Shown piece by piece: positions 2,178 through 4,387 of a DNA stretch of 32,883 nucleotides. The notes below the pieces were generated by a model, which saw only the letters and a program-made list of their open reading frames with translations, was not told the origin of the DNA and searched no databases. The first letter of the stretch is position 1. Each line of letters starts with the position of its first letter. The translations under genes and the position numbers were made by a program. Source of the stretch: Vallitaleaceae bacterium (GTDB lineage Bacteria > Bacillota > Clostridia > Lachnospirales > Vallitaleaceae); the NCBI GenBank assembly GCA_029935405.1, contig JAOZKH010000020.1, positions 1 to 32,883 on the forward strand, given 5' to 3'.

Positions 2178-2194
2178 TTGTTTTGTTGCAAAAA

Positions 2195-2216
2195 AAGAGA
2201 GTCCTTAGACTCTCTT
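2195..2216 (-). terminator. Rho-independent terminator of rpsT (may also serve holA)
   Basis: Perfect 9-bp stem AAGAGAGTC-CTTA-GACTCTCTT; A-run on the + strand gives a U-tail for minus-strand transcripts. Confidence 0.85.
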
Positions 2217-2226
2217 CGTAAGTTCA

Positions 2227-2487
2227 TTACATTTTATTAACTGCTTTAGATAATCTAGAAATCTTTCTAGAAGCAGTATTTTTGTGGAAAATACCTTTTG
2301 ACTGAGCAGCTGCGATTGCAATATTAGCGTTTGCTAATTCTGTGCTTGCAACTTCTTTCTCATTTGCTTCGATTGCTGCGATAACTTTCTTAACTGAAGT
2401 TTTAACGCCTGACTTGATGCTTTTATTTCTAGCAGCTTTAGTAGCGTTTACTTTGATTCTTTTCTTAGCTGATTTAATGTTTGCCAT
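2227..2487 (-). CDS. rpsT: 30S ribosomal protein S20
   Basis: MANIKSAKKRIKVNATKAARNKSIKS...; GGAGGTGA RBS. Confidence 0.96.
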   Translation of the reverse strand: MANIKSAKKRIKVNATKAARNKSIKSGVKTSVKKVIAAIEANEKEVASTELANANIAIAAAQSKGIFHKNTASRKISRLSKAVNKM

Positions 2488-2492
2488 TTAAT

Positions 2493-2604
2493 TCACCTCC
2501 ATAATCGAATTTGTTATATTACTACGCAAATAGAGGGTGAGCATAGTAAGTATAAACGTAAGTTCAAGTGGGGTTGTTCTTACGTTGAAATCGTTTCTAC
2601 ATAC
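2493..2604 (-). promoter_or_regulatory. Structured rpsT 5' leader (two hairpins; possible loop-SD interaction)
   Basis: Hairpin 1: 2579-2586/2555-2562 (AACGTAAG/CTTACGTT). Hairpin 2: 2541-2549/2519-2527 (TTACTATGC/GCGTAGTAA). Loop TCACCCTC complementary to SD GGTGA at 2493-2497. Confidence 0.5.
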
Positions 2605-2610
2605 CTAAGT

Positions 2611-2639
2611 AGTATAAGAGAATAATCTATATATGTCAA
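2611..2639 (-). promoter_or_regulatory. SigA-type promoter for rpsT
   Basis: On the minus strand TTGACA (2639-2634), 17-bp spacer, TATACT (2616-2611). Confidence 0.8.
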
Positions 2640-2706: not shown

Positions 2707-2771
2707 ATAGTCAGAATTAAGGTAAAACTTAATATAAGATGATAAAATATCGTCAAATGAGGAGAATGGTA

Positions 2772-3578
2772 ATGCAAACACATATGTGGCGCGAAATATT
2801 AATTCCTTACGAACAAGCGGTTAAGGAATTAGTTATTAAATTTGAGAGTATTGCTAGGGAAAATAAACGTCTTGGTAAGTATTCTCCAATAGAGTATGTG
2901 ACAGGACGAGTTAAGAAAATTTCAAGTATACTTGAAAAAGCAAAGAAAAAAGAAATAGTTTTAAGTAAAATTGAAGATGAAATTGAAGATATTGCAGGGA
3001 TTCGTATAATATGCCAGTTTGTTGAAGATATAGATAGAGTAGTTGAATTGATAAGAGCTAGAGGCGATATGCAAATTAAATATGAGAAGGACTATATTCA
3101 AAACACTAAACAATCTGGATATAGAAGTTATCATTTAATAGTGTACTATTGTGTACATACAGCTCTTGGTGAGAAGAAGGTACAAGCGGAAATTCAAATT
3201 CGTACATTGGCTATGAACTTTTGGGCTACAATTGAACATTCTTTATTATATAAGTATGGTCATAATATTCCATCTTCGATTCGTAAAAGGCTTGTTAAGT
3301 CTGCAGAAGCAGCACATATGTTGGATCAAGAGATGAGTAAAATAAGAGGCGAAATAATGGATGCTCAAGATTCTTTTCAATATAAATCCAACATTATAGC
3401 TGACATATTAAATAATATTCAAAATATTAAAAACGCGTCTGAACATAGTCTTGAAGCTGAGCAAATTCAAGAAGAATTTTATAGGTTATGGGAAGATGGT
3501 AATATTGAAAAGTTAGTTGCTTTTAATAAACGTTTAGATATTATTGCGGAGAACCATAAGGCACAAAGCCTTCAATAA
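2772..3578 (+). CDS. Small alarmone synthetase (RelA/SpoT synthetase-domain, YjbM/RelQ-like GTP pyrophosphokinase)
   Basis: GIRIICQF, YRSYHLIVYY, AEIQIRTLAMNFWATIEHSLLYKY; no HD or TGS domain. Start moved from 2739 to the ATG at 2772 with GAGGAG upstream. Confidence 0.85.
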   Translation: MQTHMWREILIPYEQAVKELVIKFESIARENKRLGKYSPIEYVTGRVKKISSILEKAKKKEIVLSKIEDEIEDIAGIRIICQFVEDIDRVVELIRARGDMQIKYEKDYIQNTKQSGYRSYHLIVYYCVHTALGEKKVQAEIQIRTLAMNFWATIEHSLLYKYGHNIPSSIRKRLVKSAEAAHMLDQEMSKIRGEIMDAQDSFQYKSNIIADILNNIQNIKNASEHSLEAEQIQEEFYRLWEDGNIEKLVAFNKRLDIIAENHKAQSLQ

Positions 3579-3634: not shown

Positions 3635-4387
3635 ATGATCAAAATAAGAATTGACAAATATTTAAGTAACCAAGGAATTGGTACTCGTACAGAAGTAAAA
3701 AAACTAATTAAGTTGGGAAAAGTAGCTAATAATGGAAATGTAGTCAAAGATCAAGGGATTAAAGTTGATATAGATACTGATTTGGTGACAGTTTCAGGAA
3801 AACAAGTTAGCTATGATAAATATATTTATATAATGTTAAATAAACCTAAAGGCGTAATTAGTGCAACGGAAGACAAAAAGGAACAAACAGTCATCGATAT
3901 TATCAATCATCCTTTAAAATTAAAGATATTTCCTGTGGGAAGATTAGATAAAGATACAACAGGGTTACTACTACTTACAAATGATGGTGCCCTTGCACAT
4001 AGCTTGTTATCTCCAAAAAAACATGTAGATAAAAATTATACGGCACTAATAGATGGAATTATATCTAATGAAACAATAGACTTCTTTGAAAAAGGAGTTA
4101 TACTTGAAGATGGATATAAAACCATGCCTGCTAAACTTATAATCCAAAAGGATAATAAATTTATTAATAGTATTAAAAGAAAAGAAACTATAAGTTATAC
4201 ACAAGCTTCAATTACTATTAAAGAAGGTAAGTTTCATCAAGTGAAACGTATGTTTGAAAGTGTTAATATGAAAGTGATTGAACTAAATAGAGATAGAATG
4301 GGGACATTAAAACTTGACAATCAACTAAAATTAGGTGATTATAGAGAACTGACAAAAGAAGAGATAAGAAAACTTAAATTAACATAG
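3635..4387 (+). CDS. RsuA/RluB-family pseudouridine synthase
   Basis: N-terminal S4 domain (RIDKYLSNQGIGTRTEVKKLI), GRLDKDTTGLLLLTNDG motif. Confidence 0.88.
   Translation: MIKIRIDKYLSNQGIGTRTEVKKLIKLGKVANNGNVVKDQGIKVDIDTDLVTVSGKQVSYDKYIYIMLNKPKGVISATEDKKEQTVIDIINHPLKLKIFPVGRLDKDTTGLLLLTNDGALAHSLLSPKKHVDKNYTALIDGIISNETIDFFEKGVILEDGYKTMPAKLIIQKDNKFINSIKRKETISYTQASITIKEGKFHQVKRMFESVNMKVIELNRDRMGTLKLDNQLKLGDYRELTKEEIRKLKLT

Follow-up and report, generated by a model that had tools for sequence, protein, structure and literature searches.

The rpsT gene of this Vallitaleaceae bacterium, which encodes ribosomal protein bS20, is preceded by a leader RNA that, on comparative evidence, is real and undescribed and adds S20 to the ribosomal proteins (r-proteins) with mRNA leaders. 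We propose that it acts in cis to regulate the monocistronic rpsT mRNA that it heads, and that its loops may sense S20-free 16S rRNA by a pairing that competes with masking of the Shine-Dalgarno (SD) sequence. In our estimate, this reading has a probability of about 0.5. In the following, the window denotes the whole stretch of 32,883 nt that was analysed.

The rpsT locus and its leader

The locus contains the following features, numbered by their position in the window:

2611-2639, minus strand: rpsT promoter read from the sequence, -35 box TTGACA (2639-2634), 17-nt spacer, -10 box TATACT (2616-2611)
2488-2604, minus strand: rpsT leader RNA of about 117 nt, read from the sequence and kept within the genus
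2555-2586, minus strand: hairpin 1 (P1), AACGTAAG (2586-2579) with CTTACGTT (2562-2555), 16-nt loop
2567-2573, minus strand: CCCCACT, complement of 16S AGUGGGG (E. coli 356-362)
2519-2549, minus strand: hairpin 2 (P2), TTACTATGC (2549-2541) with GCGTAGTAA (2527-2519)
2540-2528, minus strand: loop of hairpin 2, 13 nt, TCACCCTCTATTT
2532-2540, minus strand: TCACCCTCT, 9 nt, fully complementary to AGAGGGUGA, the h12 loop of 16S (E. coli 298-306)
2493-2500, minus strand: SD GGAGGTGA of rpsT, read from the sequence
2227-2487, minus strand: rpsT, ribosomal protein bS20, 86 aa, ATG at 2487 (Pfam PF01649, 88.9 bits)
2189-2214, minus strand: intrinsic-terminator-like hairpin AGAGAGTC...GACTCTCT with a T-run, 3' of rpsT, read from the sequence

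The original prediction had placed a TTGACA-17-TATACT promoter, a long leader of about 115 nt and two successive hairpins with loops of 16 and 13 nt on the minus strand upstream of rpsT. The promoter (2639-2611), both hairpins, the 13-nt loop and the SD were located as claimed, and the leader comes to about 117 nt with a transcription start site that, as deduced from the position of the promoter, would lie at about 2604. Most other rpsT leaders likewise begin with promoter-like hexamers. Within hairpin 1, an inner CAA/TTG pairing encloses the CCCCAC loop, and in the loop of hairpin 2, TCACCCTCT overlaps the leader segment that is able to pair with the SD. As predicted from its surroundings in the sequence, rpsT is a monocistronic unit, and it is the only S20 (PF01649) gene in its own genome. 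Divergently from rpsT, the window carries genes for a RelA/SpoT-like (p)ppGpp synthetase (2739-3578, plus strand) and an RsuA-like pseudouridine synthase (3635-4387, plus strand), which were named from their sequences and would both be concerned with ribosome control.

The fold of the single leader sequence is barely better than that of shuffled sequences (MFE -23.8 kcal/mol, z -1.55), and the MFE structure includes hairpin 2 and omits hairpin 1. Since this fold is unremarkable, comparative evidence was needed to decide on the hairpins. Two other readings of the region were discarded. Transcription attenuation by the leader was ruled out because neither hairpin is followed by a U-run. An RNA of the opposite strand that mimics 16S rRNA came into question since the leader, read in reverse complement, resembles a degenerate 16S; it was rejected because the promoter, the SD and the hairpins all sit on the rpsT strand.

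Conservation of the window-type leader

For the comparison, regions upstream of rpsT were gathered from 172 loci, mostly from the Lachnospirales. Three further species of the genus, together with one other genus (L118), have the leader type of the window. They agree in the CCCCAC of loop 1 and the CTCACCCTCTATTTG of hairpin 2, and their stems have changed. The loop 15-mer CTCACCCTCTATTTG was found in 5 of 392 Lachnospirales genomes, in all five upstream of rpsT. Hairpin 2 retains 9 of 9 pairs in these three species despite seven differences in its arms, with three pairs changed on both sides; the same number of random changes preserves it in 170 of 200,000 trials. In hairpin 1, the core is retained in the genus and the inner CAA/TTG is replaced by CTA/TAG, a compensatory pair around the conserved CCCCAC loop. 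Judged by these comparisons, the hairpins of the window leader are real; the type is narrow (two genera) and comprises few independent sequences.

The leader had also been suspected to belong to an undescribed class, and the searches agree with this. The window and 20 relatives gave no match above the gathering score in Rfam 15 and, at loose thresholds, nothing beyond chance level, and a literature search turned up no description of an rpsT leader. A 2024 review states that autocontrol by S20 has been neither confirmed nor refuted and knows no conserved bS20 operator (PMC10931766). Moreover, the 20 candidate r-protein leaders of Eckert and Weinberg 2020 include no S20 leader (PMC7247131). Table 1 of the latter study lists the L20 motif of Deltaproteobacteria as regulating 'rpsT', which is most likely a misprint for rplT.

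Leader types across the Lachnospirales

About 170 rpsT leaders reveal a set of leader types across the order. The largest type, the main one of the Lachnospiraceae, has a strongly covarying hairpin with the loop GUCCGUGUCCG. In 21 sequences picked by this loop alone, 7 of 7 stem pairs have changed on both sides, and 81% of the cells are paired as compared with 57% after shuffling and 24-40% after sliding. A covariance model built on this hairpin (R1), when run on a sample of the class, detected members of f6 only. Other families were not reached by R1, and the window gave no match up to E = 10, so that it is without the main-type hairpin. Sampled rpsT genes outside the order mostly have short leaders without these motifs. 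The window leader is a type of its own within this order-wide set, distinct from the main type. The host is a gut-type bacterium, and a folded and conserved S20 leader occurs in much of its order.

Several families show peculiarities. In a part of f18 (L139, L140, L240, L258 and L264), rpsT lies just downstream of an L20-like (rplT) gene, whose product has the C-terminus NRKMLADLAV.DAAGFTKLVDAAKAKLN resembling L20, and has neither a leader of its own nor a 16S-complementary motif, as if the element had been lost once rpsT joined the rplT operon. In L119, L123 and L126 (f1, genus g7), the leader hairpin covaries between GGTAA/TTACC and GATAA/TTATC around the loop ACTCTCTA, the CTCTAT of which could base-pair with the altered SD of these leaders, ATAGAGG. 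In L156 and L163 (f2, genus g64), the SD is itself paired by the stem CTCTATTC/GAATGGAG, in a register unlike that of the rest of f2, and the CCGTGTCT loop is retained. Outside the Lachnospirales, the rpsT leaders of L194 and L199 (f64) have a hairpin with the loop ATTCCCCGAA, and their SD GGGGG pairs locally with CCCTAT; they are possibly distant cousins of the CCCC-loop element.

Complementarity of the leader loops to 16S rRNA

A blind k-mer enrichment was run on the nonredundant leaders. It returned promoter words, the GTCC/TCCGG flanks of the main type and the words CCGTGTC, GTGTCTC, (T)ATTCCCC(A), CCCTCT(A) and CCCACT, and the latter five are antisense to one 16S stretch of about 80 nt. 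This stretch corresponds to E. coli 298-374 and covers h12-h13-h15 of the 5' domain, with numbering and helix names that we worked out from the known position of the 338-357 segment. The assembly of the window contains no 16S gene, and the 16S of another species of the genus was used instead. The targets are:

E. coli 298-306: h12 loop, AGAGGGUGA
E. coli 324-332: h13 loop, GAGACACGG
E. coli 354-374: GCAGUGGGGAAUAUUGCACAA

The families use different sub-segments of the antisense stretch, and most of the 16S-complementary segments of families other than that of the window are not SD-like:

Window type: TCACCCTCT and CCCCACT
L116: TGTGCGATATT and TCCCACTGC
f18: GCGATATTCCCCA and CCGTGTC
f2: TATTCCCCA and CCGTGTC
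f24: GGTATTCCCCAT and GTGTCTCA
f22: TTGTGCAATA and CCGTGTCT
f9: TCGTGTCTCA or GTGTCTTAGTC

The original prediction had noted that the second loop is complementary to the SD, over a longer stretch if one C is bulged. This complementarity is real (10 bp, one bulge, -11.3 kcal/mol), and a loop-SD pseudoknot in the window leader is possible. What had been missed is a more stable partner for this loop than the SD, namely the h12 loop of 16S rRNA. The duplex of TCACCCTCT with the h12 loop has 9 of 9 bp and no bulge (-16.7 kcal/mol), and with this pairing the bulged C is no longer needed. Likewise, CCCCACT reaches -13.9 kcal/mol with 16S 356-362 versus -7.0 kcal/mol with its own SD. It is likely that the match between loop and SD tells only half of the story. 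Covariation between loop and SD gave no signal: the complementarity to the own SD is 13.58 versus 13.73 for the SDs of other families. The SD sequence hardly varies among the leaders, and C-rich loops match any G-rich SD.

These comparisons bear on an explanation that we regard as improbable, namely that the leader is a purely cis-acting device, in which loop 2 and the CCCC loop serve as an anti-SD and tune initiation or mRNA stability with no ligand in trans. The h12 match would then arise because AGAGGGUGA resembles an SD. The strength of the loop-SD duplex, the likeness of the loop to the 16S 3' end (UCACC-CUC versus UCACCUCC) and the CUCUAU loop of f1 genus g7 opposite the altered SD AUAGAGG would all fit a cis-acting device. 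However, it leaves the bulged C unexplained, the own SD is matched no better than those of other families, and CCGUGUC, UUGUGCAAUA, UGUGCGAUAUU and GUGUCUUAGUC are not SD-like.

Specificity of the 16S match

A simple count of leader k-mers against the whole 16S and a mean-score profile were both dropped as non-discriminating because any conserved motif finds some match. In their place, region scores were set against shuffled targets and against GC-matched genomic windows, and the scoring was repeated with a motif masked and on a hold-out. All leaders were scored against the 80-nt region with one vote per family, and it has to be considered that this region was picked after the matches had been seen. 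The family-weighted score was 2.93 as compared with 0.65 +/- 0.38 for shuffled regions, of which 5 of 5,859 reached 2.93, and no other window along the 16S scores as high. The sense, reversed and complement controls scored about 1.0 or lower. None of 5,965 GC-matched genomic windows reached 2.93 (maximum 2.43), a control that allows for shared descent because the same related leaders are scored. Moreover, the region ranked top in five rrn operons including the spacer and the start of the 23S, and it remained the top 16S window when CGTGTC was masked (p about 0.0005-0.002). Leaders of new genera, collected afterwards and used as a hold-out, scored 5.16 versus 1.05 +/- 0.52 (0 of 5,844), a result that is inflated by descent since these genera come mostly from the same families. 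Among upstream regions of the same families, rpsP scored 0.27 and random pieces 0.70 versus 3.37 for rpsT. For the window type alone, the chance of both matches in colinear order is about 0.0017. By comparison of sequences, conservation, stem covariation and a complementarity above the controls have been demonstrated.

The signal is strong in f1, f18, f9, f2, f22 and f24, and it is absent in about half of the families (f7, f8, f11, f16, f17, f19, f20 and f23). In the large family f6, the match is limited to the 7-nt CCGUGUC, and the conserved flanks (GU...CCGG) as well as the A of CCCUCUA are not complementary to 16S. In f18, the order of the elements is not colinear with 16S. Some substitutions among the hold-out leaders preserve the pairing (GCGATATT, CAATATT and GTGATATT, with A/G opposite U and C/T opposite G), and in f24/f4 an altered h12 loop goes along with an unused h12 element; neither is proof of covariation. 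In f6, the 16S has UUGGAC and the leaders are without UUGUGCAAUA. Clear covariation between leader and 16S could not be demonstrated because the 16S stretch is nearly invariant and most assemblies are without a 16S gene.

A model for the function of the leader

We infer from the complementarity that leader and 16S may pair in cells, and the direction of regulation and any role of S20 are likewise parts of a proposed model. The loops would form kissing or antisense pairs with 16S rRNA before it has folded or before S20 has bound to it. For the window leader, TCACCCTCT of loop 2 would pair with its own SD and switch translation off or, alternatively and more stably, with the 16S h12 loop; CCCCACT of loop 1 would likewise pair with 16S 356-362. 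A build-up of naked 16S 5' domain would capture the loops, so that the SD would be freed and more S20 would be made. As soon as S20 folds the 5' domain, the loops would go back to the SD, and S20 output would track the supply of S20-free 16S rRNA. That rpsT mRNAs throughout the Lachnospirales sense 16S directly, with loops hybridising to S20-free h12, h13 and 354-374 and thereby opening translation of S20, is a tentative proposition to which we assign somewhat less than even odds.

In the mature 30S, the targeted 16S segments are folded, which counts against the pairing model. The targeted segments are loops and linkers within the 5' domain. S20 reportedly stabilises the lower four-way junction and brings about a conformational switch of h15 and the helices next to it (PMC5591316). 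This action of S20 on the h15 region, together with the nature of the targets, favours a model in which S20-free 16S captures the loops. In f2, the loop on the SD-overlapping stem contains TTCCCC and CCGTGTC, both complementary to 16S, an arrangement reminiscent of a toehold switch. When the 16S-complementary segments were blocked in silico, the SD opened more than with random blocks in f1, f2, f15, f22 and f24; no opening of the SD was seen in f6, f9, f12 and f18.

A rather unlikely alternative is classical autogenous control, in which excess S20 would bind the hairpins and stabilise the SD-masking state, the antisense resemblance being accidental or a by-product. Most known r-protein leaders act in this way, the leader is structured, covaries and precedes rpsT only, and the invariant loop of the main type exceeds its 16S match in length. 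Furthermore, the S20 level influences an rpsT reporter in E. coli/Salmonella (PMC7069363). However, attempts to demonstrate binding of bS20 to its mRNA in E. coli failed (PMC10931766), and the loops do not mimic 16S in the sense direction: the sense score is 12 versus an antisense score of 35, and the cores are absent from the sense 16S. Classical control would also leave unexplained why the families hold different pieces of one antisense stretch.

It is even less probable, and far less so than classical control, that the pairing tethers the mRNA to nascent or S20-deficient 30S subunits for on-the-spot translation of S20, or that the leader acts as an RNA chaperone. The same complementarity data and the location of the targets in the 5' domain, where S20 acts, would agree with such a delivery, but it requires neither the SD-overlapping stems of f2 nor the loop-SD match of the window. 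We know of no precedent for mRNA tethering or delivery via leader-16S pairing.

Relation to known systems and significance

Autoregulation of rpsT in E. coli/Salmonella is said to go back to work by Parsons et al. 1988. The gene and the presumed feedback by S20 are the same as here; however, rpsT of these bacteria has a UUG start codon and no conserved structure (PMC10931766; PMC7069363), whereas rpsT of the window has an ATG start codon and covarying hairpins. Like the rpsT leader, the autogenous leaders for L10, L20, S4, S15 and S6:S18 and the 20 candidates of Eckert and Weinberg 2020 (PMC7247131) are structured, covary and lie directly upstream of one r-protein gene, and in both cases control is likely translational and exerted at the SD. 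Those autogenous leaders that resemble rRNA copy it, a sense mimicry that is frequent and not obligatory, whereas the resemblance of the rpsT leader is antisense. SD-sequestering switches such as those opened by sRNA activators and synthetic toehold switches likewise combine a loop or toehold complementary to an RNA acting in trans with an SD masked by a stem or pseudoknot. In contrast to these switches, the RNA proposed to act in trans would be the 16S rRNA itself, and opening is a proposal here.

With a conserved and covarying rpsT leader across much of the order, the question of S20 self-control can be put to the test. Should the 16S complementarity prove functional, it would represent a new principle, in which an r-protein mRNA gauges naked rRNA by base pairing. 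The supply of an r-protein would then be set by rRNA through RNA-RNA pairing and not by protein feedback or competition for the protein.
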